In this document: positions 1,181 through 14,499 of the stretch, one piece after another
How the letters are laid out: each line of letters starts with the position of its first letter
Numbering within the stretch: position 1 is the stretch's first letter
Assembly: GCA_016196905.1 (NCBI GenBank)
Contig: JACPWV010000034.1
Location: forward strand, 1-14,499
DNA length: 14,499 nucleotides
Direction: 5' to 3'
Source of the DNA: Chloroflexota bacterium
Lineage (GTDB): Bacteria > Chloroflexota > Anaerolineae > UBA7937 > JACPPX01
Notes under the pieces: model-generated
Database searches by the model: none
What the model was told of the DNA's origin: nothing
What the model saw: only the letters and a program-made list of their open reading frames with translations
Translations under genes and position numbers: made by a program

Positions 1181-1858
1181 TCAGCGAGCTCGGCGGCGCC
1201 AGGTCAGAGTGCCCAACACGAGGGTCGCCGCCAAGGCGAGAATCTCGAGCGCCCGTAGAGGTGAGAGGGTGAAAGGAGACTCACCCTCAAAGGTCTCGCC
1301 CATGCCGGGCACGCGGGGAGCGATGGGAGCCGGGGTAGGGATCGGTGTGGGCGGGGGAGTGGCCAGGCCTAGGTCGGCCGCGCCGGCAGTCTCGGTGGGC
1401 TGAGGTGTGGGTGCCTCGGCCGCTGTGTAGGGGGCCTGGGGGGCGGGTGTGCCTACTTCCAGAGCCCGGGATTCCTCGGAGGGCGCTGGTGCGGGGGCCG
1501 CGGGGAAAAACATAGCGGGCCCCGCGAAGAATTGGGATCCCACATCGATGCTCAGCATGCAGACGAAGACCGCCGCGGCCAGCGCGGTGGCCCCGCGCAG
1601 TGTGGCGTACCCCCGACCGATGGAAGGTGACGGGATCAGACCCGCGGCGAAATCGCGCGGGAGGGGGAGCGGGGGCAGGCGGTGCACCCAATCTACGGTC
1701 TGACGCAGTGTCTCCAATTCGCGAGCACAACTCGTGCAGCCCCGAAGATGCGCATCGACCTGTGCGCGCTCGGCAGGGGGGAGCCGCTCGTCCAGGTAGG
1801 CGGAGAATAGCTCCTGGATGCGCTGGTGCTCGTTTCTTCGCCAACCTTTCCAGATCAT
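1181..1858 (-). CDS. Zinc-finger anti-sigma factor with two membrane segments
   Basis: A 225-residue protein encoded directly downstream of an ECF sigma gene. The N-terminus is a cytoplasmic zf-HC2/ZAS anti-sigma domain: residues 11-52 contain the H37-x3-C41-x2-C44 zinc-binding signature after a helix of the FSAYLDERLPPAER type. A first membrane helix lies at about 90-112, followed by a Pro/Ala/Thr-rich stretch (118-186) that should be outside the membrane, and a second hydrophobic helix (about 201-220) with a terminal RRRAR. It should bind and inhibit the sigma factor until released by a signal, commonly by proteolysis in this family. The ATG is preceded by AAGGG five bases upstream. A 99-base gap separates it from the sigma stop; a small hairpin, GTATC/GATAC, sits just before the Shine-Dalgarno. 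The second, C-terminal helix is unusual for the simple single-pass class. Confidence 0.85.
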   Translation of the reverse strand: MIWKGWRRNEHQRIQELFSAYLDERLPPAERAQVDAHLRGCTSCARELETLRQTVDWVHRLPPLPLPRDFAAGLIPSPSIGRGYATLRGATALAAAVFVCMLSIDVGSQFFAGPAMFFPAAPAPAPSEESRALEVGTPAPQAPYTAAEAPTPQPTETAGAADLGLATPPPTPIPTPAPIAPRVPGMGETFEGESPFTLSPLRALEILALAATLVLGTLTWRRRAR

Positions 1859-1957
1859 GTTTGCCCTTGTATCCCTAATCGATACGCTTCATCGCCTAGA
1901 GAGTCCGTGGGTCGCCATCAAAATAAACTGAATCTCCAGCTAGTCGGTCGAAGAAAG

Positions 1958-2551
1958 TTATGACCCGACCTTAAGACGGTAGCGCTGAGGCAAAAGTTCC
2001 CCATGGGCCAGCAGATAATCGCGCAGGGCGGAGCGGCCTCGGCTGAGGCGAGATTTCACCGTGCCCAGTTGGGTCTGAGTGATGTGGGCGATCTCCTCGT
2101 AGCTCAGCCCCTGGATGTCCGCCATCACCAGGATCACGCGCTGCTCGGGGGGCAGAGAGTCAATCCCCGCTTGAATCACCCGCTCCAACTCGCGGCCCAT
2201 AACCTCTTCTTCGGGGGCGCGGCCGGGATCCCGGAATTCGATCTCGCTCTCTTCGCTCGCCATGAGCTCTTCAAGGGAGAGCGCGGGTCGACGTTGGCGA
2301 TGGCGCAGCTGATCATAGCAGGAGTTGGTGACGATGCGCAGCAGCCAGCCTTTGAAGGACCCTCCCCGAAAGCTGCGCAGGGCGCGGTAGGCGTGCAGGA
2401 AGGCGTCTTGGGTGGCGTCGGCTGCAGCCTCGCCATCGCCGAGGACGCGATAGGCCAGGTTGTAGACCAGGCCTTGGTAGGCGCGCACCAGCTCCTCGAA
2501 GGCGCGCGCATCCCCATCCCGCGCCGCGGCGATGAGCGTTGCTTCATCCAT
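1958..2551 (-). CDS. ECF (group IV) RNA polymerase sigma factor
   Basis: A 197-residue extracytoplasmic-function sigma factor. Region 2 (about 17-86) has the characteristic DATQDAFLHAYRAL helix and the FKGWLLRIVTNSCYDQLR segment, which contact core polymerase and the -10 element. Region 4 (about 120-178) has LPPEQRVILVM and the helix-turn-helix LSYEEIAHITQTQLGTVKSRLSRGR, which reads the -35 element. The two are joined by an acidic linker (92-118), and there is no region 1 or 3. The ATG has GAGG four bases upstream. It is followed in the same direction by its likely anti-sigma factor. The divergent tRNA-Leu promoter lies immediately upstream; I could not identify a convincing ECF-type autoregulatory promoter (GGAAC...CGTC) for this gene. 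Length and domain order are normal for the RpoE/SigW-like class. Confidence 0.93.
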   Translation of the reverse strand: MDEATLIAAARDGDARAFEELVRAYQGLVYNLAYRVLGDGEAAADATQDAFLHAYRALRSFRGGSFKGWLLRIVTNSCYDQLRHRQRRPALSLEELMASEESEIEFRDPGRAPEEEVMGRELERVIQAGIDSLPPEQRVILVMADIQGLSYEEIAHITQTQLGTVKSRLSRGRSALRDYLLAHGELLPQRYRLKVGS

Positions 2552-2562
2552 CAGGCCTCGAC

Positions 2563-2591
2563 TTGACGCATCCCTGCGTGGATTCTATAAT
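2563..2591 (+). promoter_or_regulatory. Sigma70-type promoter of tRNA-Leu
   Basis: TTGACG (2563-2568) and a perfect TATAAT (2586-2591) with a 17-base spacer, pointing at the tRNA. The expected start point near 2598 leaves a leader of about 92 bases before the mature tRNA, which would be removed during tRNA processing. The same -35/-10/spacing combination occurs at the GNAT gene. Confidence 0.8.
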
Positions 2592-2611
2592 CATCTTGTA
2601 TTACACCGAGT

Positions 2612-2667
2612 TTCGCATCGACGGAGTCATGGGAATGCGTCCCCCCCGGGCGTTCCGTCGATTCGAA
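2612..2667. repeat. Large inverted repeat in the tRNA leader / sigma upstream region
   Basis: The arms TTCG-c-ATCGACGGA (2612-2625) and TCCGTCGAT-t-CGAA (2654-2667) pair over 13 of 14 positions around a 28-base loop. The loop itself holds GGGA/TCCC and a run of seven C. It lies downstream of the tRNA start point, so it would be in the precursor leader, and upstream of the divergent sigma gene, so it could equally be a DNA operator. No U tract follows, which argues against a simple terminator. Confidence 0.7.
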
Positions 2668-2690
2668 GATCTTACTTACTGATCTACCCT

Positions 2691-2776
<86 letters not shown>

Positions 2777-2822
2777 TCATTATAACGGAGATCGCCTTCT
2801 CTGTTAGGCGAACTCAAGAGCG

Positions 2823-2836
2823 TCCGCCTAGGCGGA
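2823..2836. repeat. Perfect 14-base palindrome upstream of the paralogue pair
   Basis: TCCGCCTAGGCGGA is a perfect palindrome. A near copy of its core follows 20 bases later (CCGCCTAGGC at 2824-2833, CCGCCTGGGC at 2844-2853), placing the repeats across the -35 region of the next gene. A second small hairpin, GGCCC-GCCT-GGGCC (2841-2854) followed by G-TTT, could be a weak terminator for the tRNA. The set could be an operator or tRNA end structures; the sequence alone does not decide. Confidence 0.5.
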
Positions 2837-2862
2837 AAAGGGCCCGCCTGGGCCGTTTCGCT

Positions 2863-2868
2863 TATAAT
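2863..2868 (+). promoter_or_regulatory. -10 box positioned for a leaderless transcript
   Basis: A perfect TATAAT ends six bases before the ATG at 2875, so the normal start point would fall on or next to the A of the start codon. No -35 hexamer is recognisable at the right distance; the palindromic repeats occupy that place. No Shine-Dalgarno precedes the ATG, which agrees with leaderless translation. Confidence 0.5.
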
Positions 2869-2874
2869 GACTTC

Positions 2875-3228
2875 ATGCGGGAGTGGCTGTCGTCTCCTCT
2901 CCGTGTGGGAAGCATTGCTCTCGCCCTGGGCGTGGCTCTGGGGTTGCTCATCGGCTATGGGGTATGGCCGGTGGAGTACACCGATGTGGACCCCATCGAT
3001 CTCAGCCAGCCCGAGCAGGAGGCCTATATGCTGTTGGTCGGGCAGGCCTTCACCTACGACGGTGATTTGGCCCTGGCCCGCCAGCGATTGGCTGCCCTGG
3101 GGCGGGCGGATTACGGCGTCGATGTGATGCGCTTGGCCGAGGAGTATGCAGCGCGTCCCGACAAAATCGGGAAGGTGGCTACGGCATTGGAAGCGCTGGC
3201 CGAGGCGCTGCGCTCAGGCTCCCAGTAA
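2875..3228 (+). CDS. Small single-pass membrane protein of unknown function (paralogue A)
   Basis: I do not recognise a named family. The 117-residue protein has a short basic N-terminus, one membrane helix (about 12-30) and a soluble, mostly helical remainder containing AYMLLVGQAFTYDGDLALA (50-68) and RLAALG. The next gene carries the same pattern (A-Y-x2-D-G-x-L-x2-A-x2-RL-x2-LG) right after its own membrane helix, so the two are tandem paralogues. I chose the ATG at 2875, because upstream in-frame starts lie inside the tRNA and this one gives a clean N-terminal membrane anchor. It is eight bases ahead of paralogue B and is probably co-transcribed with it. The soluble part is probably extracytoplasmic, but orientation cannot be proved. 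The gene could also be reached by read-through from the tRNA promoter. Confidence 0.75.
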   Translation: MREWLSSPLRVGSIALALGVALGLLIGYGVWPVEYTDVDPIDLSQPEQEAYMLLVGQAFTYDGDLALARQRLAALGRADYGVDVMRLAEEYAARPDKIGKVATALEALAEALRSGSQ

Positions 3229-3236
3229 ACCCGGCC

Positions 3237-3995
3237 ATGCGTAGCTTGCAGTTCGCTTTGCTGATCGGGATGGTGGCCGGCACGGCTATCGGATTGAGCA
3301 CCGCCTGGTTGATTTTCCCTTCCCCGCTGGCCAACGCCAAATGGGCCCAACTGCGCGAGGAACACAAGCGCGATCTCGTGGCCATGATCGCCGCGGCCTA
3401 CGCCGTGGATGGGAATCTGACCGTTGCCCAAGCGCGGCTCTTTCGCCTGGGCCTCTCTGACCTGCGAGCCACCCTATCTGAACAGGCGGGCGGGGATCCC
3501 GCCAGCGCCCGCCTGGCCGCTGCGCTCTTCCCCGAAACGGCACCCAGTCCGGCCACGGTACCCAGCCCGTCCTCAGTCCAGGCCACTCCGACGCGCAGCG
3601 CCGTCGCCCGTTCGAGTCCCACAACGGCCGCGCGCCCGACGGCCACCCCGCGTGAGGCGCGGTATCGCCTGGCGGAGGCCCTGGACCTGGGGTGCAGTGC
3701 CGATCATCCCCAGGATGCGATCGCGATCTATGTTCGAGCCAGCGATGGGCAGGGCCTCCCCTGGGTGGCGATTCGGCTGGGGGGTCCCCGGGGCGAAGAT
3801 CTCTTCTACACCGGCCTGCGCCCTCAGGTCGATCCCGGCTACGCGGATTACTTGGTGACCGCCTACGGGAGCTATGAGATCGGCTTGGCCGACGAAGAGC
3901 AAAACGCCTCAGCCAAGCTCAGGTTCGAGGGTTGCCTGAGCGAGGACGGGGAACAACATCGCGTGTGGCGGGTGATCTTTGAAAGGGAACCCTGA
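3237..3995 (+). CDS. Membrane-anchored protein of unknown function (paralogue B) with extra C-terminal domain
   Basis: A 252-residue protein. Residues 6-28 form a membrane helix; 36-75 resemble paralogue A (AAAYAVDGNLTVAQARLFRLGL); 100-140 are a Pro/Ser/Thr/Ala-rich linker; and 141-252 form a separate compact domain with two cysteines (C153, C233) that could make a disulfide outside the cytoplasm. The C-terminal domain is not one I can name. The layout (anchor, conserved stalk, flexible linker, globular head) suggests a surface-exposed protein whose head was added to, or lost from, one copy after duplication. The start lies eight bases after the stop of paralogue A with no clear Shine-Dalgarno, so translation may be coupled. 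The promoter of the PrsW-family gene begins at the end of this gene. Confidence 0.8.
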   Translation: MRSLQFALLIGMVAGTAIGLSTAWLIFPSPLANAKWAQLREEHKRDLVAMIAAAYAVDGNLTVAQARLFRLGLSDLRATLSEQAGGDPASARLAAALFPETAPSPATVPSPSSVQATPTRSAVARSSPTTAARPTATPREARYRLAEALDLGCSADHPQDAIAIYVRASDGQGLPWVAIRLGGPRGEDLFYTGLRPQVDPGYADYLVTAYGSYEIGLADEEQNASAKLRFEGCLSEDGEQHRVWRVIFEREP

Positions 3996-4006
3996 GATGG
4001 TATACT
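3979..4006 (+). promoter_or_regulatory. Promoter of the PrsW-family protease gene
   Basis: TTGAAA (3979-3984) and TATACT (4001-4006) are 16 bases apart, with an extended -10 TG at 3998-3999. The start point would be near 4013, about 20 bases before the start codon. It overlaps the end of the preceding gene, so the protease gene can be expressed separately from the paralogue pair. Confidence 0.6.
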
Positions 4007-4030
4007 CGATCAGGTTGGGCCTGGCTGGGT

Positions 4031-5260
4031 GTGGCCATGAACACGAGTAAACGGATCGGGCAGACCGCGCTGGTGGTGAGCGGTGGGTTGTTGTTGGCGG
4101 TGGGACTGGTTTGCGGGTTGATCTATGTTGCCCTTCCTTTATTTTATCGAGCCGCTGATCTCATCCAAACCCATTTGCTGCCGGCCTCTTGCGCCGGTTT
4201 GGCCCTCCTGGGAGGAGCCCTCCTGGCTTACCAGGGTATTCGCGGCCTGTTGGATCGCCCCTCCCGCCTTTTCCGACCTCCCCGCCCCGGATGGCTGATC
4301 GCGCTGTTCTTATTAGCCTTGCTGGCAGGGGAAGGCATCCTTCTCCTGGGCAGGCGCTCTCCCCAGATAGCGGCCTATCTCTTTCCTCCCTGGCATTTCA
4401 TGGCAGCGCTGATCCCCTCCTGGGCCGTGCTGGCCTTTGTGGCGCGACAGATCCCGGCGCGGGAGGGCTCGCCCAACTCCTGGCGGATGATGATCGTGCA
4501 GTCGGCCTACGGGGCGATGATGGTTCCTCTCTTGGCCTTCGCCCTGGAGGCGAGCATCGTGGGGTTGGCCTCCATTCTTCTGTTCCTGGGTCTCTCGAGC
4601 ATCCCCGGAGGAGTTGAGCGTCTGCGCGAGATCGTCTCCCTTCTACAAAGCCCTTCGCTTCCCCAGGACCCGCAACAGATCGGCGCGCTTATTTTGTGGC
4701 CGCCCATCGCGGCCTTGATCGGACTGGGCCTGGTGGTGGTGGCGCCTTTGGTGGAGGAGCTCTTGAAGCCGCTGGGCGTGGCCTTGGCCGCGCGGCCCGG
4801 GGTCCAGCGGAGCGATGCCTTTCTGTGGGGGGTGGCCGCCGGGGCCGGCTTCGCCGCGGCGGAGAGCCTGTTCAACGGCCCCCTCCTTTTGGACGCCTGG
4901 GGGGCGGGGATGCTCGCGCGTGGGGGCGCTACCCTGGTTCATACCTTGGCCAGTGGCTGGATTGGGCTGGGGTGGTACGCAGCGATCGTGGAGGGGCGCT
5001 GGCTGCGCTTGCTGAGGAACATCGCCGGTGGCTTCGCTCTGCACGCCTTGTGGAACGGGCTGATCGTGACCCTGGGCCTATTGGCCCTGGCCAGCACGAC
5101 CCAGCTCCCGGTTTTGGAAGGCAGCCTGCTAGCGGGCCTTATGGGCCTGTTTCTCGGTGGTTCGTTGTTGGTCTATTCGGTCATCCTGGCGGTGACCCTG
5201 CTGCGCCTCAGCCGGCGACTCGGCGGCGAGTCAATCGTGGGCGAATTAGCACCTCCGTAG
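4031..5260 (+). CDS. PrsW-family intramembrane metalloprotease
   Basis: A 409-residue polytopic membrane protein with the PrsW signature in order: VEELLK (241-246, the E-E-x2-K motif), AGFAAAESLFN (272-282, glutamate E278), VHTLA (303-307, H304) and LHALWN (337-342, H338). These glutamates and histidines form the proposed metal site of this CAAX-protease-related superfamily. Extra N-terminal helices (about 12-35, 52-70, 86-106, 119-138, 155-190) make it longer than Bacillus PrsW, which is the site-1 protease for anti-sigma RsiW. An ECF sigma/anti-sigma pair is encoded about 2.2 kb away, making the anti-sigma factor a plausible substrate; this is inference. The GTG at 4031 and an ATG at 4037 are both possible starts and neither has a clear Shine-Dalgarno. 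The gene has its own promoter and is followed by the hydrolase gene after 50 bases. Confidence 0.88.
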   Translation: MAMNTSKRIGQTALVVSGGLLLAVGLVCGLIYVALPLFYRAADLIQTHLLPASCAGLALLGGALLAYQGIRGLLDRPSRLFRPPRPGWLIALFLLALLAGEGILLLGRRSPQIAAYLFPPWHFMAALIPSWAVLAFVARQIPAREGSPNSWRMMIVQSAYGAMMVPLLAFALEASIVGLASILLFLGLSSIPGGVERLREIVSLLQSPSLPQDPQQIGALILWPPIAALIGLGLVVVAPLVEELLKPLGVALAARPGVQRSDAFLWGVAAGAGFAAAESLFNGPLLLDAWGAGMLARGGATLVHTLASGWIGLGWYAAIVEGRWLRLLRNIAGGFALHALWNGLIVTLGLLALASTTQLPVLEGSLLAGLMGLFLGGSLLVYSVILAVTLLRLSRRLGGESIVGELAPP

Positions 5261-5310
5261 GTGAGTCGCGATCGCCCGGAAGCGAGGCCGTGGGGTGAGA
5301 AGCTGGTGAC

Positions 5311-6300
5311 ATGAGCTTATTCCTTCTGATCCTTGTCGTGCTCGCCGGGGTCCTCCTGGTGGAGGCCGCCCGCCTGGTGGCGCGTGGAGCGGATGAACTT
5401 ATCCGCCGCGAGTCGCCCGACCCACCGCAAAGCCCGGCCGACTACGGACTGCCCTATGTGGAGGTGTGGTTCCTCAGTCGAGATGGGCTGCGTCTGCACG
5501 GTTGGTTCATCCCCGCGCAGGGATCTCCGCTGCGCTCTCGGGACGATCCCCAGTGGTCGATGGGCAACCGCGGAGTGGTCATCTTCTGTCACTGCCGTTT
5601 CGGAAGCAAGGACCCCGATCTGAAATACGTCCCCGATTTCCACACAGCGGGTTACGGCGTGCTGCTTTTCGATTTTCGCGGGCATGGGCGCAGCGAAGGA
5701 CGCTACAGTTCCTTCGGGTACTACGAACGAGGCGATCTCCAGGCCGCCATTGATCTTCTGGAATCGAAGGGCTACTCCCGCGTGGGCGTGTTGGGCTTCT
5801 CCCTGGGTGGCGCGGTGGGGATCTCCACCGCGGCCATCGACCCGCGCATCGTCTGTGTGGTTTCTGACGGGGGTTACGCGGAGCTGAGCAAGGTGGTTAG
5901 GGCCGGGAGCGTGGAGCGGGGCTACCCCCCTTGGCTGTCGAAGGCCTTCGCTCCGCTGGTGCTGTGGTGGGCCAAGCGGCGGATGGGCTGCCGCCTGGAA
6001 GAGGCGGATCCCATCCGCTGGGTGGCGCGCATCGCCCCGCGGCCTCTTTTTCTCATCCACGGTGAGATCGATCCATATATCACCAGCGACGATGTTCGCC
6101 GCTTGTTCGCCGCTGCCGGAGAACCCAAGGAGTTGTGGATCGCCCCCGGGGCGGGGCATCGTCGCGTAGAGGAAAGATATCCAGTCGAATATGGCCAGAG
6201 GGTGCTCGGCTTCTTCGACCGCTACCTGGGTTCCGCTGGGGGGTTATATAAACAGGCGATGCCTGCGGAGGGTGAGCATGAAGCCGCTGCGCCCCTTTGA
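5311..6300 (+). CDS. Membrane-anchored alpha/beta hydrolase
   Basis: A 329-residue protein. Residues 2-20 form an N-terminal membrane anchor or uncleaved signal. The rest is an alpha/beta-hydrolase fold of the YqkD/BAAT-like kind: DGLRLHGWFIP (58-68), an oxyanion region HCRFGSK (94-100), FDFRGHGRSEG (120-130), the nucleophile elbow GFSLGG (162-167, Ser164), the acid in HGEIDPYI (Asp254) and the histidine in GAGHRR (His283). The complete triad predicts an active serine esterase, lipase or peptidase; the substrate is not predictable. The position of the catalytic domain relative to the membrane is uncertain. The start follows a weak GGTG-like site. The 3' end overlaps the MFS transporter start by 23 bases, so the two are almost certainly co-transcribed and possibly coupled; a transporter-hydrolase pair may handle a common ester-containing or glycosidic compound. 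Confidence 0.88.
   Translation: MSLFLLILVVLAGVLLVEAARLVARGADELIRRESPDPPQSPADYGLPYVEVWFLSRDGLRLHGWFIPAQGSPLRSRDDPQWSMGNRGVVIFCHCRFGSKDPDLKYVPDFHTAGYGVLLFDFRGHGRSEGRYSSFGYYERGDLQAAIDLLESKGYSRVGVLGFSLGGAVGISTAAIDPRIVCVVSDGGYAELSKVVRAGSVERGYPPWLSKAFAPLVLWWAKRRMGCRLEEADPIRWVARIAPRPLFLIHGEIDPYITSDDVRRLFAAAGEPKELWIAPGAGHRRVEERYPVEYGQRVLGFFDRYLGSAGGLYKQAMPAEGEHEAAAPL
6267..6272 (+). promoter_or_regulatory. Ribosome binding site that fixes the MFS start
   Basis: GGAGGG lies five bases before the ATG at 6278, inside the end of the hydrolase gene. It favours this ATG over the longer reading from an upstream in-frame ATG at 6191, whose extra residues are an out-of-frame copy of hydrolase coding sequence. 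Confidence 0.8.
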
Positions 6301-7606
6301 TTTATTGGCTATCAACCTTTACTGGTTCTCGCTGTCCTTCTTCTTAAATGGGCTGGGACGGTTTATCCAGCCCGTTTTGGTGGCGGCCCTGGTGGCCCCC
6401 GAGATCAAAAATACGGCTCTGGGGGTGCTGACCGCCTCGGGGCTGGTGGTGGCCACCGTAGTCCAGCCCCTGATGGGCGCCGTCAGCGACCACTCGACGC
6501 TTCGCTGGGGCCGGCGGCGCCCCTTCATATTAGCCGGCACCCTTCTAGATTTCGGCTTCCTCGTTCTCATCGGCCTCTCCGGGAACTACCTCCTTCTGTT
6601 CGTGGCCATCCTCCTTGTGCAGTTCTCAACCAATACCGCCCACGGGGCTCTGCAGGGGTTGATCCCCGACTTGGTCCCACCCTCCCAACGGGGTAAGGCG
6701 GTAGGGGTCAAGCAGTTCCTGGAGTTTGCGGGGCTGATCTTAACTTCTATCATCACCGCCCGCTTTCTGGATCAAGCCCAGGGTTTCTTCGAGAGGGGGC
6801 AGCCAGCTCAGGCCCTGGGCCCCATCTTCACCGCCCTGGGGATCATTATCGCCTTGCTGGCCGTGGGGCTGGTCCCGACCCTGCTGTGGGTTCGGGAGCG
6901 ACCGCTGGGTGCGAGTTCGGAAAACAGGGCTCGGCCGAGAATCAGCGATGTCCTGAGGGTCGATGTCCGAGCCAATGGGGACTACTTCTGGCTCCTGGCG
7001 GGACGGGTTTTCATCTTGGTGGGGCTGAGCGTGATCACCACCTTTGCCATCTATTTCTTCTCCGACGTAGTCCGCCTGCCCAACCCCGTAGCGGTCACGG
7101 GTAACCTGATCGTCACCGCCGGTTTGCTCACCCTCCTGGTCACCTATCCCGCCGGTTATCTGACGGACCGCCTGGGCCGTAAACCCTTGAACCTCATCGC
7201 GGGCCCCCTGGCCGCGGCCGCGGCCCTGGGGCTGCTCACGGTGACCAACCGCACCCTCTTCCAGCTGGGTCCCCTGGCGGTGACTGACATCCTGGCCTAC
7301 GCCACCCTCTTGGGGTTGGCCTCTGGCGTCTTTCTCAGCGCCAACTGGACCTGGGCCACGGATCTGATCCCCCCTGCGGAAGCTGGCAAATACCTGGGCC
7401 TGGCCAACCTGGCCAACGCCGGTTCGGGGGTCCTGAGCGGCTTCGTAGGCGGGCCGATCATCGACTTCTTCAACGCACAAGGGCCCGGACTGGGCTACAA
7501 CGTGGCCTTCCTTCTGGCCGCGGCCAGTTTCTTGCTGGGGACGCTGTTGATGGCCCGCGTTCGGGAGACGCGGACAAGGCCCGCGCTGGTGCCGGAAGGG
7601 GTCTGA
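6278..7606 (+). CDS. Major facilitator superfamily transporter (sugar:cation symporter-like)
   Basis: A 442-residue polytopic protein with about 12 hydrophobic segments. Loop 2-3 carries the MFS motif A in the form GAVSDHSTLRWGRRRPF (67-83), where the insertion before WGRRRP resembles the SUT/SLC45 sucrose-type and GPH carriers. The second half repeats it as YLTDRLGRK (294-302). Residues 353-371 (LSANWTWATDLIPPAEAGK) and the following GLANLANAGSG helix are also reminiscent of that group. A sugar or glycoside is therefore a reasonable guess for the substrate, but not established. The start is set by the GGAGGG site. The gene overlaps the alpha/beta-hydrolase gene and ends just before a terminator-like hairpin, so it closes the transcription unit. 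Length is normal for the family. Confidence 0.88.
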   Translation: MKPLRPFDLLAINLYWFSLSFFLNGLGRFIQPVLVAALVAPEIKNTALGVLTASGLVVATVVQPLMGAVSDHSTLRWGRRRPFILAGTLLDFGFLVLIGLSGNYLLLFVAILLVQFSTNTAHGALQGLIPDLVPPSQRGKAVGVKQFLEFAGLILTSIITARFLDQAQGFFERGQPAQALGPIFTALGIIIALLAVGLVPTLLWVRERPLGASSENRARPRISDVLRVDVRANGDYFWLLAGRVFILVGLSVITTFAIYFFSDVVRLPNPVAVTGNLIVTAGLLTLLVTYPAGYLTDRLGRKPLNLIAGPLAAAAALGLLTVTNRTLFQLGPLAVTDILAYATLLGLASGVFLSANWTWATDLIPPAEAGKYLGLANLANAGSGVLSGFVGGPIIDFFNAQGPGLGYNVAFLLAAASFLLGTLLMARVRETRTRPALVPEGV

Positions 7607-7610
7607 ACTC

Positions 7611-7654
7611 GAGCCGCCGAGTCACAGGAACGCTGCTCGGTCCCGGCTCTTTCT
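7611..7654 (+). terminator. Rho-independent terminator after the MFS gene
   Basis: GAGCCG-CCGAG (7611-7621) pairs with CTCGG-(tcc)-CGGCTC (7636-7649): 11 base pairs with a three-base bulge, a 14-base loop, then TTTCT. It begins four bases after the MFS stop codon. The short U tract makes it less than ideal. Confidence 0.55.
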
Positions 7655-7708
7655 ATGTGAATGTTTGACCCCGCGCTTCACTGAGTAGCCCACTCATCGT
7701 TGTCGGAC

Positions 7709-8464
7709 ATGGATCGCACCGGCAGCAGACGGGGTTTTCCTTCTCCAGCCTGGGGTCTGACCATGTTGGCCCTGCTGGCCAGCGCTTGCTGGGCCCCACC
7801 TTCCCCACCCACGCCCACGTCACCCTCGTCCTCGACCCCGACGCCGCCTCCCGCTCACACGCCAGCCCCAACCTCGACTCGGATCTACGGTTTGGCCGAC
7901 GAGTATGAAGTAGGGGTGGCTCTACTGGTAGGCGGGCGCTATGAGGAGGCGATCGCCGCCTTCGACCGCGCCATCGCCCGCAGTCCCCAGGATAGCCAGG
8001 CCTACTTCAGTCGGGGGCAGGCCCACCTGAGCCTGGGAAATTACCGCGCCGCCGTCCGCGATTTTACGCAGACCATCGCCTTGTCGCCGACCAACGGGGA
8101 GGCGTACTACCTGCGCGGCGTCGCCCGCGCCAAATTGGGGGAGTACGCCCTGGCGGTGGCCGACTACTCCCAGGCCATCCAGATCGATCCCCAGTTCGTA
8201 GAGGCCTATTTGGGACTGGGCGAGGTGCTCCCCTATCTCGGCCAACTGGAAGAGGCGCTCGCTCAGCTCAACGTCGCCCGCTCGCTGGCGCCCGACAACC
8301 CGGAGATCTACCACCTGCGGGGTGTAGTCTATGCCCAACTGGGCCGCTACCCGGAGGCCATCGCCGATTTTCAACGCTATCTGGAGCTCTTCCCCGAAAG
8401 CCCTCTGCGATCCGAGGTGGAGTTCGTCATCCGCATCCTGCGTGAGCGTCAGGAACCCTTCTAA
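7709..8464 (+). CDS. TPR-repeat lipoprotein
   Basis: A 251-residue exported protein. The N-terminus (MDRTGSRRG, a hydrophobic run to LLASAC) is a lipoprotein signal peptide with the lipidation cysteine at C27. A Pro/Ser/Thr-rich spacer (28-58) follows, then about five tetratricopeptide repeats from residue 60 to near the end, each showing the TPR consensus spacing (for example GRYEEAIAAFDRAIARSPQD, YLRGVARAKLGEYALAVADY). The repeats form a helical solenoid for protein-protein contacts; no enzymatic domain is present. I chose the ATG at 7709 over a TTG at 7700, because the extra three residues add nothing. A start at the later methionine in the signal would leave the signal peptide without its basic region. 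It is monocistronic between two terminators. I found no convincing promoter or Shine-Dalgarno. Confidence 0.85.
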   Translation: MDRTGSRRGFPSPAWGLTMLALLASACWAPPSPPTPTSPSSSTPTPPPAHTPAPTSTRIYGLADEYEVGVALLVGGRYEEAIAAFDRAIARSPQDSQAYFSRGQAHLSLGNYRAAVRDFTQTIALSPTNGEAYYLRGVARAKLGEYALAVADYSQAIQIDPQFVEAYLGLGEVLPYLGQLEEALAQLNVARSLAPDNPEIYHLRGVVYAQLGRYPEAIADFQRYLELFPESPLRSEVEFVIRILRERQEPF

Positions 8465-8482
8465 TTCCCCGACTGCCACAGC

Positions 8483-8519
8483 AAAAACGAGCCCGCCAGA
8501 GGCGGACTCGTCGTTTTTT
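8483..8519. terminator. Bidirectional rho-independent terminator
   Basis: ACGAG-c-CCGCC (8487-8497), loop AGA, GGCGG-a-CTCGT (8501-8511): ten base pairs with one C/A mismatch. It is followed by six T on the plus strand (8514-8519) and flanked by five A (8483-8487), which become a U tract on the minus strand. It separates the convergent TPR and DedA genes and can serve both. Confidence 0.85.
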
Positions 8520-8554
8520 AAGGGCACGATCGATTATCGGCCTAGAGATCCTCT

Positions 8555-9202
8555 CTATTCACTGCGCTCCTCCACGGAGAGCGCGATCTGGCGCGATCCG
8601 CGACGGAGGTGGCGATAGATGAACACCCCGCCCAGCGCCAGGAGGGCCACTGCAATGGGGATATCGAAAGGACGCAGGAACTCGCGCACCTCCCACCAGT
8701 GCTCGCCGAAGAAGTACCCGCCCCAAGCCAGGGCCAGGCACCAGGGGAAGGAACCGGCGAAGGTATAGAACAAGAACTTGGGGAAATTCATACGGGCCAC
8801 CCCCGCCGGGAAGGAGATGAAGGTGCGCACGATGGGCAATAGACGGGAGAAGAAAGCGGTGGCTTCGCCATATCTACGGAACCAGCGCTCACCGACCTCC
8901 AGGTCGTGGGTCGAGATGAGCAAGAAGCGACCGTAACGCTGGAGGAAAGGCCGGCCTCCCAGGGTGCCCAGCCAGTAGGAGGCGGCCGAGCCGATGGTGC
9001 AGCCCAGAGCACCGTAGAACCCGGCCCAGAGGAGGCCGCCGGGCTCCTCCACCAGCATCCAGCCGGCCAGGGGCATGATGATCTCGCTAGGTAGCGGGAT
9101 GTTGGCGCTCTCGATGGCCATGGCCACCACCACCCCGCCCCAACCGATGCCCTGCATCAACTGCTGTAGAAACAGCACGATCTGCTCTTCGATGGCTTGC
9201 AT
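8555..9202 (-). CDS. DedA-family membrane protein
   Basis: A 215-residue polytopic protein of the DedA/SNARE-associated (VTT-domain) family, whose members act in lipid scrambling or polyprenyl-phosphate recycling and envelope homeostasis. Family motifs are visible: ESANIPLPSE (31-40, with the early acidic and proline residues), GSAASYWLG-x-LGG (71-83) and FFSRLLPIVRTFISFPAG (117-134), the F-x-R-x2-P-x2-R-x5-A/P-G signature. The ATG at 9202 is chosen because GAGGA lies seven bases upstream (9210-9214), while the TTG reading at 9226 would begin inside the -10 box. It has its own promoter and ends at the bidirectional terminator. A polyprenyl-phosphate role would suit its position beside a glycosyltransferase locus, but that link is only inference. 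Confidence 0.92.
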   Translation of the reverse strand: MQAIEEQIVLFLQQLMQGIGWGGVVVAMAIESANIPLPSEIIMPLAGWMLVEEPGGLLWAGFYGALGCTIGSAASYWLGTLGGRPFLQRYGRFLLISTHDLEVGERWFRRYGEATAFFSRLLPIVRTFISFPAGVARMNFPKFLFYTFAGSFPWCLALAWGGYFFGEHWWEVREFLRPFDIPIAVALLALGGVFIYRHLRRGSRQIALSVEERSE

Positions 9203-9225
9203 ACCAGTGTCCTCGAAACGCGACA

Positions 9226-9254
9226 ATTATACAGATGGGTGATCGATCAAGCAA
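9226..9254 (-). promoter_or_regulatory. Promoter of the DedA gene
   Basis: On the minus strand TTGCTT (9249-9254) and a perfect TATAAT (9226-9231) are 17 bases apart. The start point falls near 9219, leaving a leader of about 17 bases that contains the GAGGA ribosome binding site. Confidence 0.7.
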
Positions 9255-9293
9255 TCGCTCAAAGGTACCATTTCGAAAATCGCCGCTTGGGAA

Positions 9294-11435
9294 TCAGGAG
9301 CGACGACGAGGCCTCGCAGCCGATCTCAGGCCGCTGGCCAACAGCGCAGATAGGGTGAGGCCGGTGATGGCGTAACCTACCCATTCGTCTAGAGTCCGCC
9401 CATGTCGAAGCTCGATGGATACCTCGGGGCCGGGCTGCGGAGACAAGACCATAAAACCCACTGGATCTGGATGGATCGGAATGGGTCGGCCATCTTGATA
9501 GGCTTGCCATCCTGGGTGATAAGATTGTTTGACCAAAATGCCCTCTCCCTCTTCTAGCGGAGTACGGATGAGGATGACATCCGGGCTGAGCGAGTTCCAA
9601 CGCAACGAGCCGCGGGGCGCCCTTTCTACAGCCTGCACATAGGCCTCCAGAGCCGGGCGATCCAGGACGCTTTGAATAGTCGGCAGCCGCGCGAAGTCCT
9701 CGAGGCTGACCAACTGTACCATTTGCGGCTGGGCCAGGGGCACCTCGTAAACGATGTCGCCGTTGTAGTCGTAGATCTCTGGCAAGAGTCCCTCGAATTT
9801 CTGGGGGTAACTGAAATCGCGGTACTGGACCTGGAAATAGGCCCTCGATTCAAAGGTGTTAACGACCAGGTATCGGATATTCAGGGCCTTCGCCCAAAGC
9901 ACAGACAGCTCACCATCCTCGCCCTTACGAATCTGGAAATCGACGTGGTCCCACCAAGGATGAACGGCGGCAAAATCGGCTCCGCCCCTCAATTGAGGGA
10001 CATCGGTGAGTACGTTCAACCAGAAGGCATGCGTACCGGCAGCATAGACCCGCTCGCCATCCTGGTGATCCGCTAACCAACGGGCGATTTGAAATTCGCT
10101 GGTTTGCTCTACATCCGCCTGGCCCACCGTAATCGCCCAGGCTTGGCTTAGGAAATTAAAGCTCAGGGCAGTTATGGCCAAGGCGCTGACTGGGAATAAT
10201 CCGCGTCTCAGCTCGCGCTGAAAAGGAAGCTCCTTGTCCCGGAGAGCCTCTGAGCCTGCATGGAACAACGTTCCCAGCAAAAGGGCGAAAGACATCTCCC
10301 ACTCGGGGATATAACGGGATGCGAAGGGGGTGATCCGCCCCACGTACCAGGCCAGGGCCGCCAGGCCATATAAGAGCGTGGCTCCCAGTCCGATGAAGAG
10401 CGCCTGGCCTTGCGGTTTGTCTATTAAGCTCCTCACCAGCACCACTCCCATCAAGAGGCCGATGACGACTAGAACTAGGATGTTCGCCAGTAAGCCACCT
10501 CCCCCGCCGAACTCCAGAGCGGCGGCGATGAAGGGGAGATTGTACCAAAAGGCAGACAACCCAAAAGCCCAAAGCGCGCAGGCGACAGTCACTCTAAGCT
10601 TTCGGGCGAGATGGCCCTGGAAGGCTTCTGAGATAAACAAGACAAGCGCCAACAGCGCGAAGCCATAAAGGGCCGTCGTGCTGGTAAGGGCGATGAGGCT
10701 GATCAGAACCGCAGTGGCGAGGTAGCCCCGGCGCTGGCCATGGCGTAAGGCGTACAAGAAGGCGAGGCCGGCTAAAGGCACGAAGGTCAAGGCGGCGATG
10801 TGCGGGCCCTCTCCATAGAGTAGGAGGACGACCAGCCGCCAAGGGGCGTAGCCCAAATGGGCCCCTACAGACCCAACCTCGGGGAAAAGATAGCCCAGTG
10901 AAGGGATGACGGAGTAAATCCAGGCCGCGAGGAATGCGGAAGAGGGGCGGCGGGTCAGATGGTACACTAACATATACAGTGCTGCCGGGTTCAATACGTA
11001 GAATGAACCGGTCACCACGCGATAGGCCTCCGAGAGCGACAGGTCAGGGGCGATTCCGTGGAGAGCGGCGATCAGAAAGGGGAGTAAGGGCATGTAAAAC
11101 AGGTGGAAGGGGAATCCGGAGTACCACACAGGGTTCCAGCTGAGGTGAGGAAAGTTTTGGGCGATAAAGCGCGCATCGGCGATAAAGGCCGATTCGATGG
11201 ACGCGATATAGCGGGTATAGGCGCTGTTGAAGAGGGGATATACCAGGGCGATGTTCAGGGCGAGGATGAATAGGAAGCCACCCACCATTTTTAATCTCGA
11301 GAGGAGGTTATCGTCTGAGGATCCCGTATAGAGCGGTTGCACTCGATGGCGATGAGGGATCGACATCGGACTATGTGAAAAGGGGGCAGCGAGCGTAGGA
11401 CCTGTTCCTGGTTTTCCAGCGTTAGAGGATTCCAT
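9294..11435 (-). CDS. Large polytopic membrane protein, YfhO / PTPS_related-like (possible GT-C-type enzyme)
   Basis: A 713-residue protein. After a polar N-terminus (1-49) come about 11-13 membrane helices up to residue 440, then a soluble, presumably extracytoplasmic C-terminal region (about 445-683) and a last helix (686-702) with a basic tail. The first outer loop holds acidic and aromatic residues (E81, D87, W100, W104), as in GT-C lipid-linked-sugar transferases. The C-terminal segment YHPGWQAYQDGRPIPI (639-654) followed by a beta stretch resembles the YfhO-family end domain. From memory it fits the 'membrane protein, 6-pyruvoyl-tetrahydropterin synthase-related' group (PF10131), whose function is unknown. 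A role in transferring sugars from polyprenyl carriers is plausible, not shown. It lies downstream of the exosortase gene with its own promoter. The ATG lacks a good Shine-Dalgarno; methionines 24 and 50 are alternative starts. Confidence 0.78.
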   Translation of the reverse strand: MESSNAGKPGTGPTLAAPFSHSPMSIPHRHRVQPLYTGSSDDNLLSRLKMVGGFLFILALNIALVYPLFNSAYTRYIASIESAFIADARFIAQNFPHLSWNPVWYSGFPFHLFYMPLLPFLIAALHGIAPDLSLSEAYRVVTGSFYVLNPAALYMLVYHLTRRPSSAFLAAWIYSVIPSLGYLFPEVGSVGAHLGYAPWRLVVLLLYGEGPHIAALTFVPLAGLAFLYALRHGQRRGYLATAVLISLIALTSTTALYGFALLALVLFISEAFQGHLARKLRVTVACALWAFGLSAFWYNLPFIAAALEFGGGGGLLANILVLVVIGLLMGVVLVRSLIDKPQGQALFIGLGATLLYGLAALAWYVGRITPFASRYIPEWEMSFALLLGTLFHAGSEALRDKELPFQRELRRGLFPVSALAITALSFNFLSQAWAITVGQADVEQTSEFQIARWLADHQDGERVYAAGTHAFWLNVLTDVPQLRGGADFAAVHPWWDHVDFQIRKGEDGELSVLWAKALNIRYLVVNTFESRAYFQVQYRDFSYPQKFEGLLPEIYDYNGDIVYEVPLAQPQMVQLVSLEDFARLPTIQSVLDRPALEAYVQAVERAPRGSLRWNSLSPDVILIRTPLEEGEGILVKQSYHPGWQAYQDGRPIPIHPDPVGFMVLSPQPGPEVSIELRHGRTLDEWVGYAITGLTLSALLASGLRSAARPRRRS

Positions 11436-11480
11436 AGCTAAGGTGTGGGTGGGATTTTGGTTGGATTGGCAGGTGCGTTT

Positions 11481-11508
11481 ATTATCCCCTGGGGTCCAAT
11501 CTTGTCAA
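11481..11508 (-). promoter_or_regulatory. Promoter of the large membrane protein gene
   Basis: On the minus strand a full-consensus TTGACA (11503-11508) and GATAAT (11481-11486) are 16 bases apart. The start point would be near 11474, about 39 bases before the ATG at 11435. Together with the terminator just upstream it makes this gene a separate unit from the exosortase operon. Confidence 0.7.
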
Positions 11509-11533
11509 AACAGGCTGGGAAGATCTTCCCTCG

Positions 11534-11565
11534 AAAATAGATCGCCCCTCGTTCAGAAGGGCGAT
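11534..11565 (-). terminator. Terminator after the exosortase gene
   Basis: On the minus strand ATCGCCCTTC pairs with GAGGGGCGAT (10 base pairs with one G-U) around a five-base loop, followed by CTA and four T (11534-11537). It begins about 25 bases after the exosortase stop and ends the glycosyltransferase-exosortase transcript. Confidence 0.7.
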
Positions 11566-11589
11566 GCCTGGATCGCACAAACCGAAAGG

Positions 11590-12222
11590 TCAAGCCAGCG
11601 CAGGTTCCTCGTCCCAGTCCTCCGGCTCCTCTAGGGGGACAAGGATGAACCGATGCGAGAAGTGCCACAGAGCGAAGAGCCATAAGATGATGAGTAGGGT
11701 GCCGGCGTAGTCGTGGAAGATCACTGCGGGGAGCTGGCCGAAGTGGAAGGCCACCAGCGCCACCACGGCGATGCGAAGTAGATTCAGAAGAAAAGTGCCC
11801 AGGAAGCCAAAGGCCACCGTCTCCCACTTGCTCCTGCGGGAATAAGAGCCTTGCAGGCCGGTGACCAGTGAGAGGGCAAAAAGGATGAAAGCTTGCCAGC
11901 CTACGCAGTTCCACGAAATGAAGAGGCTGACCGTCTTGGAGCCTGCCTGCAAGTAGAGCATCTGATCGCTCACCGAGGCGGAGATGCCTAGGGGCCACAA
12001 GAGCACGGCGATGAGGCGGGCTTCGACGGGTGCCACCCATTGGCGCAAGATGAGATCCCCGCCCAGCCGCATCACTAGGGCGGTCAAGAATTCGTTGAAG
12101 GTGGTGATGAAGGGCATGAACAGGAACAGGAAAGCTGCGGCCAGCAGCAGCCACCGGTAGGCCGACCGCTCGCCTCCCTGGGGGATCGGGTAGCTCTCGA
12201 TCAAGGTCTGCGGTTCCCTCAT
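11590..12222 (-). CDS. Exosortase/archaeosortase-family transpeptidase-like membrane protease
   Basis: A 210-residue polytopic protein with about six to seven membrane helices. The three conserved active-site positions of the exosortase/archaeosortase superfamily are present in order: the cysteine in SWNCVGWQ (C106), the arginine in LLNLLRI (R150) and the histidine in FHDYAG (H170). Enzymes of this family cut C-terminal sorting signals of the PEP-CTERM type and are thought to attach the substrate to an envelope component. The ATG overlaps the stop of the upstream glycosyltransferase gene (ATGA) and has a strong AAGGGAGG site eight bases ahead, so the two are translationally coupled. The upstream protein ends in a PEP-CTERM-like signal, which makes it the likely, perhaps only, substrate. 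The C-terminus is acidic and cytoplasmic. The C-V-G-W context differs from the common C-S-G and recalls the XrtG-type group; the subgroup is uncertain. Confidence 0.88.
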   Translation of the reverse strand: MREPQTLIESYPIPQGGERSAYRWLLLAAAFLFLFMPFITTFNEFLTALVMRLGGDLILRQWVAPVEARLIAVLLWPLGISASVSDQMLYLQAGSKTVSLFISWNCVGWQAFILFALSLVTGLQGSYSRRSKWETVAFGFLGTFLLNLLRIAVVALVAFHFGQLPAVIFHDYAGTLLIILWLFALWHFSHRFILVPLEEPEDWDEEPALA

Positions 12223-14499
12223 CGCACCCGCCTCCCTTGGAACAAGGCGCGGCGGCCCCTACCCAGCCGGGAGGCCAGGAAGGGGATGGCCAGGGCCAGG
12301 GGCAGGAAGGCCAGAGAGGCCTCGGGCACGGTGATCACCGGCGTATCCACCCTGGACATCTGAGCCGAGTTGTCATAGCGGATTTCGAGGTCGGGCCCGC
12401 TCAGATAATGGAACCCAAGGCGCAGCCGTTGTGGGTTACTGGCGCTAAAGGTAGCCCCGTTCGTTGAGAAGCTGATGGTCATCGGGCTTGTGCTTGAGCT
12501 GGTGAGGGTTTGATTGGCCGATTGCCCTAACACCTGGCAGGAAGTGCCATCCGCATTGCAGGAGCTCAGGGTCACATAGAAGGTGAAATCGCCGTTGGTA
12601 CCTGGAAAGTAGAGGATCACACTGGTGGGGCCCGCCGCGATCCCTCCATCGTCGTTCCCGGTGGGATAGATCTCCGTGTACCAGAACCTTTCGGGGTTGC
12701 TGGCGTTGAGGAGCAGCTTGTCCACGGCGCCCGTCTCCGCCGCTCCATTGGTGTTCATCCACCGCCCGGAGCTGGGCGCGGGGCTGCCCGGGGGCGCGCT
12801 GGGATGGAAATAGAGGCTGTCCGGGTTACCCACCGCGGTGGGCACGAAAACGGACATCCCGAACAGGGTCATCAGGGTGGCTGCCATCATGGCCGCCACA
12901 GCCTGAGCCAGGCGCGGCCGCTGCGACTGGCGCCGGCTCATCAAACGGATCGGCCATAAGGTCAGGGTGCCCCGTCCATGGGGATAAGCGCTGGCGGCCA
13001 ACCCGGGGACGGGCGCCGGCTTGCGGCGCGGCCCGCGGGGCAGGAGCCAACTGAATTTCTTGCCAAAGCGGAGCTTTCCAATCGCCTCGGTGATCCGCCC
13101 TGACTTGGGCGTGCGATGCCAACCGCCCTCGTCTTTTTCCAACAGGCCCTTCAAAGCGGCATACCCCTGGTAGGGCACCAGCAGATAGGTCAGCAAGATG
13201 AAGGATAATATCCCGCTCCAGTTGCGTCGAACCCCTTTCTCTAGAAACAGGCCAGAGAGGTTCATCAGGATCAGAGCCAGGGCGTTGGTGAAGACCAGCG
13301 ACCAGCCGAGGAGGGAGGTCCAGTAGGGGATGTACTGGTGGAAGACGAGTTCGGAGAAGAACCAGGCAGCGGTGCCGGCGATGAAAAAGACGGACTGGAG
13401 GTAATAGGGGGCGTAGTAAATGAACTCCAGTTTCTCAGCCAGGGACAGTTTGGGCGAACGGAGGATGCGCGTGAAGTAATTCTTGACGTTGAAGGTATGG
13501 CCTTCGGCCCAGCGCATCCTCTGGCGGGTGAGGCGTTGGAAGGTAGAGACGCACTCGGCCGGGGCCTGGATGTAAGGGGTATAGAGGATCTTAAAGCCCT
13601 CTAAATACAGGCGCAGGGTGAGCTCCCAGTCCTCGGTGATGCTGGTGCCCCAGCGGAGTTGGCGCAGAAGGTCGGCACGGATCATGAAGACGGAGCCGGA
13701 GATCATCTTCATGGAGCCGATGAATTCCTGCACCGGCCGCTCGATGACATAGCTGCCGCTGAATTCGGCGCGGATGCCTCGGGTGATCCAGTTCTCGCCC
13801 GCGTTGAGCATGTGCCATTGATAACCCTGGACCACGGCCACGCGCGGATCGCTCAGCACCGGCCCCTGCTCGTCGTAGGCCACATCCCCGTTGGTGCCGT
13901 AGAAATAGGCCAGGAACTGCTGGAGGATGTCACTGGGGGGAACGAAGTCAGCGTCGAAAACCACCACGAACTGGGTGCGTGGATCCATGCGTTCCAGGGC
14001 GTTCTGCAACGCGCCGCCCTTAAAGCCACGCCGGTTGGACCGATGCAGCACGCGAACCCGGGGGTGCTGGGCCCAACGCTCCAGGACCTGCATCGTCTCA
14101 TCGGTGGAATCATCGGCCACCAGGACCTCGTAATTCTCGTAGTCCAAGGTCGTGCAGGCGGTCAACAGGCGGTCGACCACTTCGGGCTCGTTGTAGAGGG
14201 GGAGGTGGATTGAAATGAACGGCTCCTCTTTGAGGCGCACCGCGGGGATGCGACCGTTAAGACCGTGGGAGCCGTTGCTCCCGTTGCTTCCCAACACCAG
14301 GGCCACTCCGCCGTAGTACTTCAAGGCGTAGATGAAAAAGAGAAAGCCGAAGAGCAGCCCCAGCAGGGCCAAGCCGTAGGTGGCGACAAAGGTCAGGGAA
14401 GAGAGAAGGATCAGGGCGATGGTAGCCAACGCCAACGCCGGCCAGCGGAGGGTGCGCAGCCCGGCCAGCCTCGCCTTAGCAGGCAGATCCAGCGCGGAA
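12219..14499 (-). CDS. GT2-family membrane glycosyltransferase fused to an exosortase substrate domain (5' end probably outside window)
   Basis: Residues are numbered from the in-window TTG at 14435. Two helices (1-42) and a Gly/Asn/Ser linker (49-61) precede a cytoplasmic GT2 domain of the cellulose-synthase/ceramide-glucosyltransferase type: ADDST (107-111), FDADF (160-164), TED (268-270) and QRMRW (305-309), the D, DxD, ED and QxxRW motifs of processive enzymes. Further helices (346-428) and a basic segment (429-510, with EGGWHRTPKSGR) follow. Then come a signal-peptide-like helix (499-536), a Ser/Thr/Asn-rich beta domain (537-700, cysteines 626 and 633) and a sorting tail: VPEAS (703-707), hydrophobic stretch, RLGRGRR. 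It probably makes or extends a surface polysaccharide using a nucleotide sugar. The TTG has no Shine-Dalgarno, and the frame stays open with a basic, membrane-type N-terminus to the window edge, so the true start probably lies outside. It is coupled to the exosortase gene by ATGA. Confidence 0.88.
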   Translation of the reverse strand, partial: SALDLPAKARLAGLRTLRWPALALATIALILLSSLTFVATYGLALLGLLFGFLFFIYALKYYGGVALVLGSNGSNGSHGLNGRIPAVRLKEEPFISIHLPLYNEPEVVDRLLTACTTLDYENYEVLVADDSTDETMQVLERWAQHPRVRVLHRSNRRGFKGGALQNALERMDPRTQFVVVFDADFVPPSDILQQFLAYFYGTNGDVAYDEQGPVLSDPRVAVVQGYQWHMLNAGENWITRGIRAEFSGSYVIERPVQEFIGSMKMISGSVFMIRADLLRQLRWGTSITEDWELTLRLYLEGFKILYTPYIQAPAECVSTFQRLTRQRMRWAEGHTFNVKNYFTRILRSPKLSLAEKLEFIYYAPYYLQSVFFIAGTAAWFFSELVFHQYIPYWTSLLGWSLVFTNALALILMNLSGLFLEKGVRRNWSGILSFILLTYLLVPYQGYAALKGLLEKDEGGWHRTPKSGRITEAIGKLRFGKKFSWLLPRGPRRKPAPVPGLAASAYPHGRGTLTLWPIRLMSRRQSQRPRLAQAVAAMMAATLMTLFGMSVFVPTAVGNPDSLYFHPSAPPGSPAPSSGRWMNTNGAAETGAVDKLLLNASNPERFWYTEIYPTGNDDGGIAAGPTSVILYFPGTNGDFTFYVTLSSCNADGTSCQVLGQSANQTLTSSSTSPMTISFSTNGATFSASNPQRLRLGFHYLSGPDLEIRYDNSAQMSRVDTPVITVPEASLAFLPLALAIPFLASRLGRGRRALFQGRRVR
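12222..12329 (-). other. PEP-CTERM-like C-terminal sorting signal of the glycosyltransferase fusion
   Basis: Residues 703-738 of the fusion show the tripartite layout of an exosortase signal: a V-P-E-A-S motif (canonical VPEPS with the second proline changed to A), a hydrophobic helix (about 707-721), and a basic cluster RLGRGRR followed by a short polar end. The gene for an exosortase begins at the last base of this segment. The motif is divergent, so a standard PEP-CTERM model might score it poorly. Confidence 0.75.
12231..12238 (-). promoter_or_regulatory. Strong ribosome binding site for the exosortase gene
   Basis: AAGGGAGG on the minus strand, eight bases before the exosortase ATG and inside the last codons of the glycosyltransferase gene. 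It fixes the exosortase start and explains how the overlapping gene is well translated. Confidence 0.85.
12828..12941 (-). other. Internal signal-peptide-like helix within the fusion
   Basis: Residues 499-536 read as a textbook export signal: Met and a basic stretch (MSRRQSQRPR), a hydrophobic core (about 511-531) and an A-V-G/N signal-peptidase-like site (534-537). In the fusion it acts at least as a membrane-crossing helix placing the beta domain outside. No Shine-Dalgarno precedes the internal ATG at 12941, so separate initiation is unlikely. Confidence 0.6.

Follow-up and report, generated by a model that had tools for sequence, protein, structure and literature searches.

A Chloroflexota glycosyltransferase gene that continues into an exosortase-type tail and overlaps an exosortase gene

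Results

We describe a gene pair at one end of a 14,499-nucleotide stretch of Chloroflexota DNA (hereafter the window), in which an open reading frame (ORF) for a glycosyltransferase (GT) of the GT2 family continues into an exosortase-type tail and overlaps an exosortase gene. The window is contig C190 of a draft genome of 1.41 Mb with a completeness of ~65% (L-numbers denote loci and G-numbers genomes of the comparison set; C-numbers denote contigs of the source genome). The fusion ORF lies at 12219..14498 on the minus strand, as do all features of the pair, and was delineated from the ORF, Pfam and alignment as a GT2 synthase, a predicted exported jelly roll and the tail. It has 759 codons and its 5′ end is open at the contig end, the true start being missing; the 738-aa version given in a preliminary description of this DNA starts at a TTG inside it. 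Within their own draft genome the fusion and the exosortase each matched only themselves, and the closest named relative is a Chloroflexi metagenome-assembled genome (L005).

The synthase part has N-terminal membrane helices at residues 14-74 (14277..14459), seen in hydropathy and as an AlphaFold helix at 18-74. The GT2 catalytic domain occupies residues 90-345 (13464..14231), with DAD at 182-184, TED at 288-290 and QRMRW at 326-330, and is followed by helices at residues 366-453 (13140..13403; AlphaFold helices 368-385, 392-419 and 427-453). By conservation, residues 460-467, WHRTPKSG (13098..13121), contain an invariant R-T-P-K-x-G, and we take this stretch to resemble the gating loop of a synthase. 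The GT2 Pfam matches of the ORF were far above their cut-offs, and in an alignment of 19 fusions D182-A183-D184, T288-E289-D290, Q326, R329 and W330 were invariant. Structure comparison gave a BcsA/HAS-like fold; in the match lists for the GT and the jelly roll, a family missing from the list is no evidence against that family. With D,D,D,QxxRW-type motifs and this fold, the fusion has the properties of a processive GT2 synthase of the BcsA/PgaC/HAS type, and against the PgaC/IcaA model TIGR03937 it scored 92 bits, below the cut-off of 422.3. We infer that this GT synthesises a glycan and, like BcsA, carries it through the membrane.

A basic linker at residues 468-527 (12918..13097), read from the sequence and of low model confidence, leads to an internal signal-peptide-like segment (12828..12917), recognised from sequence, alignment and AlphaFold, with a helix at 528-549 and AVG^N at residue 557. 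Behind it lies a jelly-roll domain at residues 558-722 (12333..12827), defined by AlphaFold and structure comparison, whose structure matches were to the C-terminal domains of CocE first and then to BcsB and carbohydrate-binding modules. Ahead of the jelly roll, basic residues are thus followed by a hydrophobic run and then by a site resembling those of signal peptidase I. We observed that the [AV]x[AG] rule at window residue 557 is kept in 17/19 alignment rows. This column is one of 3 so conserved among 696, and the only one of them just behind an exported-type helix, the others lying in the QxxRW region and between the post-GT helices. The window's own AVG^N is a weaker form of the cleavage-like site. 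Because of the internal signal-like segment and its conserved site, the ORF resembles two genes joined into one, for a GT and for a conventional secreted CTERM protein. An independent start inside the ORF for its CTERM portion was considered and rejected: a Met precedes the segment in the window, but most relatives lack one, as judged by reading the segments, with no statistics.

The exosortase-type tail (12222..12329), placed by alignments and AlphaFold, consists of VPE (724-726), a helix and a basic end. In the window it runs VPEAS-helix-RLGRGRR, as had been described, but the protein does not end there, since ALFQGRRVR still follows. Among 28 aligned tails, P is found in 28/28 and E in 27/28, the one D belonging to L055, and a second P lies within the tail helix in at least 90%. 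Past residue 470, just two columns of the 19-row alignment, P725 and P739, are invariant, and E726 is conserved in at least 90%, so the P-E conservation is more than chance; the GT core, unlike this C-terminal half, has many invariant columns. The profile search that the preliminary description suggested, against PEP-CTERM and variant CTERM models, failed to place the tail: none of the 28 was above the cut-off of any CTERM model in NCBIfam or Pfam, the best being MYXO-CTERM at E 0.0039 (7/28 tails match this model at E up to 1). A scan of 16 genomes with PF07589 returned 0 over cut-off, present tails included, and as it misses these tails too it cannot exclude other substrates. The tripartite order of motif, helix and basic end, together with an exosortase in the genome, agrees with the definition of PEP-CTERM proteins, and the internal segment with the conserved cleavage-like site may be the counterpart of their signal peptide. 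One possible chance tail, on C179 of the same draft genome, was set aside as an MFS-like protein (by reading) without P-E.

The second gene of the pair (11590..12222) encodes an exosortase-family protein of 210 aa, recognised by profile match and alignment, with C106, R150 and H170. It scored 35.6 bits against TIGR04178 (exo_archaeo; cut-off 23) and therefore belongs to the family; the same model found exosortases above cut-off in 16/16 genomes. The three residues are invariant in five aligned exosortase sequences and are presumably the catalytic residues of the exosortase/archaeosortase family. No model of a named exosortase subfamily matched the protein above cut-off, and assignments as XrtG, XrtX, ArtC or ArtF were rejected on these scores; a search of solved structures gave no credible match. 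Its ATG overlaps the TGA of the fusion (ATGA), and GGGAGG (12231..12236), likely the ribosome binding site, lies 8 bases ahead of the ATG. Among the scored Chloroflexota pairs, 22/26 have a 4-base ATGA or GTGA overlap, a count that presumes the start codon nearest the fusion stop and leaves out the second pair of L055. This arrangement suggests translational coupling of the exosortase gene to the fusion. Both the overlap with its ribosome binding site and the GT2 enzyme with processive motifs running in frame into a VPE-type tail had been noted in the preliminary description; the former agrees with the sequence, and the latter with Pfam, the 19-fusion alignment and the ORF.

A search of 400 Chloroflexota genomes with an exosortase alignment matched 22, the source genome included. 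We examined 29 exosortase places, in these genomes and in G001, G005 and G447; L008 and L060 were dropped as duplicates of L035 and L005. An ORF ending in [VI]P[E/D], helix and basic end lies directly upstream of the exosortase in 27/29 (exceptions L056 and L058), which is the adjacency that the earlier proposal called for. GT sequence is present in the same ORF for 23 of these 27 (L006 and L037 show the GT end only), and L036, L044, L054 and L055a are too close to contig ends to show it. The fusion thus recurs in many separate assemblies, and for this reason an assembly artefact, raised beforehand as a possible refutation, was rejected.

The GT and the exosortase also occur together across genomes. 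A GT-core profile built from nine fusions (threshold E 1e-60) matched 20/400 Chloroflexota genomes, all 20 inside the 22 exosortase genomes. In the two others, G227 and G302, the exosortase is near a contig start, and the G227 ORF holds a GT end. Among genomes labelled Patescibacteria (the phylum of G446), the exosortase was found in 9/286, one of them weak, and the GT in 8/286, with 7 shared; G540 has the GT only, and G446 and G496 the exosortase only, the G446 locus L007 showing a GT end beside its exosortase. The hypergeometric values are 8e-32 for Chloroflexota and 1e-11 for Patescibacteria; both ignore phylogeny, and the GT profile was derived from fusions adjoining exosortases. Of the 11 strong exosortase places in Patescibacteria, 7 (L007, L161, L162, L163, L168, L169 and L170) have a tail ORF upstream, either immediately or no more than two ORFs away; it is masked in L165 and absent at L164, L166 and L167. 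Fusions without an adjacent exosortase, which had been named as potentially refuting if VPE were also not conserved, do exist at L087, L088, L145 (G447) and L190, but all four keep VPE and have an exosortase elsewhere in the genome; the L190 fusion (G460) has 3592 codons and is distant from its exosortase. Some loci show further peculiarities. At L007 a gene for a Beta-lactamase2-family protein (2055-3101, plus strand) lies between tail ORF and exosortase. L147 has a second GT2 behind the exosortase (5646-7118 and 7119-12908), whose linker is interrupted by an in-frame stop; the ORF after the stop is repetitive, its first helix having VLDP and no P-E motif. The receiver-GT fusion of L090 (5345-8992, minus strand; G215) loses its frame past the GT region.

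We counted tails against exosortases with a tail profile (A3), which derives from these tails and would overlook tails of other kinds. In 16 genomes it gave 24 strong matches (E 3e-8 or better), the next being at E 0.013, alongside 19 exosortases. The two counts are equal in 14/16 genomes, of which 13 are clean, G264 and G309 having two pairs each. G005 is not clean: the tail and the exosortase counted there sit on separate contigs, and the tail is followed by another, partial exosortase. Its two exosortase places, L058 (3335-3844, plus strand) and L059 (6530-6898, plus strand), differ, one being without an upstream tail ORF. At L087 (6999-9095, plus strand; G179) a 698-codon tail ORF without GT stands directly behind the GT fusion.

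Pairwise distances of exosortase and GT were correlated with r 0.96 over 20 pairs, and 0/5000 permutations gave a value as high (20/21 pairs were used, L053 being left out). Much of this correlation would arise from shared descent alone. The extra pairs of G309 and G264 (L035 and L038, with IFIPE tails) are more telling: in both proteins they are mutually nearest, and neither is closest to the VPE pair of its own genome (L046 and L045), so pairs travel as units.

Some relatives carry regulatory domains. A receiver domain lies ahead of the GT in 5/7 Chloroflexota fusions scanned that have enough N-terminus (fusion residues 64-173 in L005, 14-123 in L059, 50-160 in L055, 123-199 in L056 and 9-119 in L145), L047 and L048 being without it. 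The L055 and L056 fusions also contain MshEN, a domain that binds cyclic di-GMP. Just upstream, L005 and L059 have genes for a GAF histidine kinase and for a LuxR-type response regulator, and L146 and L055 a gene for a LuxR-type regulator. The three Patescibacteria fusions scanned (L161, L164 and L170) have transposase-like helix-turn-helix domains before the GT2, and no receiver. Synthesis and surface delivery may therefore be switched together through the receiver or MshEN in some relatives. In the L059 fusion ORF (3312-6674) three stretches between the GT and the signal-like segment matched RNA polymerase alpha C-terminal-like domains, the best copy at residues 701-758.

The gene after the exosortase in the window (9294..11435, minus strand) encodes a 713-aa membrane protein. 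In L055 and L136 its relatives (322 and 328 bits) adjoin pairs or fusions of this type, and there are weak matches in L046 and L052; the window protein had no Pfam match, and the L136 relative a weak one to YfhO. Elsewhere in the window are genes for an ECF sigma factor and a PrsW-family protease (1181-2551, minus strand, and 4031-5260, plus strand), with a likely anti-sigma gene, assigned by reading only, beside the sigma factor.

Discussion

Sequence comparison establishes that the fusion exists, that its tail and a signal-peptidase-like site are conserved, that the two genes form a pair, and that GT and exosortase co-occur. We consider it reasonably probable (roughly 0.6) that a membrane GT2 polysaccharide synthase and an exported, tagged jelly roll are encoded by a single ORF, and that the coupled next gene encodes the exosortase serving that ORF. 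The helix behind the linker would export the jelly roll and undergo at least partial cleavage by signal peptidase I. The exosortase would then cut at or near VPE and transfer the jelly-roll domain to a membrane lipid or glycolipid, which would keep the domain on the cell surface next to the synthase; there, like BcsB, it could bind the polymer or guide it. The preliminary description rightly saw a GT2 enzyme fused to an exosortase-type tail, and the fusion is conserved; it set this substrate apart from secreted proteins as a polytopic enzyme, whereas what is sorted is probably the exported jelly roll, brought out by an internal segment that signal peptidase may cleave. A further step, speculative and on balance unlikely, would be a self-anchoring machine, in which signal peptidase splits the product and the exosortase joins the jelly roll to a lipid-linked glycan of the same synthase. 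If true, each synthase would supply both the polymer and the protein anchor.

Several observations weigh against a strict pairing of one fusion with one exosortase. Tails outnumber exosortases in G179 (5 vs 2), in G215 (3 vs 1) and, counting tails at E 1.2e-4 or better, in the Patescibacteria genome G595 (4 vs 1). The one-substrate system proposed earlier is thus clean in 13/16 genomes and not general. When other CTERM proteins were counted, as had also been suggested, the tail profile revealed no additional strong tail in 13 genomes, and PF07589 was uninformative. Judged by these sequences, the adjacent exosortase is dedicated to the fusion in most genomes, not in all.

The alternative closest to the earlier description is that signal peptidase makes no cut and the whole polytopic synthase is the exosortase substrate, removal of the last helix anchoring or regulating the intact enzyme. 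The predicted topology would be workable, as the two last helices could be equivalent to the closing helix pair of a BcsA-like synthase, the jelly roll lying in between, and the fusion itself is conserved. Against this, the segment ahead of the jelly roll has retained a basic n-region and an h-region, with [AV]x[AG] at a single alignment column in 17/19 rows, and PEP-CTERM proteins are described as always carrying a signal peptide (PMC3237569; here and below, sources are cited for the portions of their text that were available). We therefore hold an uncut synthase to be possible and rather improbable. Still less probable is that the exosortase only frees the jelly roll, with no new attachment: the locus shows no acceptor, but archaeosortase A (ArtA) substrates are lipid-anchored at their new C-terminus after cleavage (PMC7157517) and exosortases have been proposed as transpeptidases (PMC11980579). 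That the tail is a mere last membrane helix in an ordinary neighbourhood, the exosortase acting on other proteins, is very improbable, for although the tail is below cut-off for all CTERM models in NCBIfam and Pfam and some exosortases have no adjacent tail, P and E stay conserved in an otherwise diverging C-terminal half, the gene overlap recurs, and the tail profile leaves no additional strong candidate in 13 genomes. The nearest approach to a loss of P-E beside a retained exosortase is the P-D fusion of L055.

The attachment target of bacterial exosortases, and the reason why they sit with exopolysaccharide genes, is an open question in the available text of the literature. The minimal pair described here narrows it to two proteins, with one substrate, one enzyme and one candidate glycan, and extends the GT/exosortase pairing to Chloroflexota and to genomes labelled Patescibacteria, two bacterial phyla. 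We found no description of a GT with an exosortase tail in titles and abstracts of the open literature; subscription papers were mostly outside this coverage, so novelty is unproven.

Comparison with known systems

PEP-CTERM/exosortase (EpsH) systems share with the present pair a tail of Pro-Glu, helix and basic end, the exosortase fold family and a link to exopolysaccharide. They usually have many substrates per exosortase (PMC3237569, PMC1569441), whereas here there is mostly one, fused to a synthase. The XrtP-associated glycosyltransferase NF053846 is likewise a GT2 named for its exosortase association, but the fusion GT scored 61.1 bits against its cut-off of 520, and the model, of 440 positions, has no fused tail.

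In LtaS of Staphylococcus aureus a polytopic part is followed by an exported domain, which SpsB, a signal peptidase, cuts off (PMC10865820); the corresponding cut is only predicted here, and in LtaS the exported part is itself catalytic and lacks a sorting tag. AcsAB is a fused, processed cellulose synthase (PMC4877109). LtaS and AcsAB are thus precedents for parts of this arrangement, and by analogy with them the fusion ORF reads like a polyprotein, not like a sorted polytopic enzyme. The differences from BcsA-BcsB and AcsAB are that no PilZ was found here and the window has a single jelly roll, and that their plain anchor is replaced by an exosortase tag with its exosortase.

The XrtG system of Lactobacillaceae likewise combines GT2-type glycosyltransferases with an exosortase-family protein and a CTERM protein that depends on an exosortase; its named components are XrtG, two XrtG-associated GTs and a Firmicu-CTERM protein (PMC12854382). 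The window proteins are below the models of that system (25.4 bits against 102.75 for the exosortase with TIGR03110, and 33.5 against 363.95 for the GT with TIGR03111), and its parts are separate genes, whereas here the CTERM protein and the GT are one ORF. XrtG and BcsA-BcsB are the closest described systems. The fusion puts into a single chain what the XrtG system keeps as separate parts, which argues that GT and CTERM protein cooperate there too.

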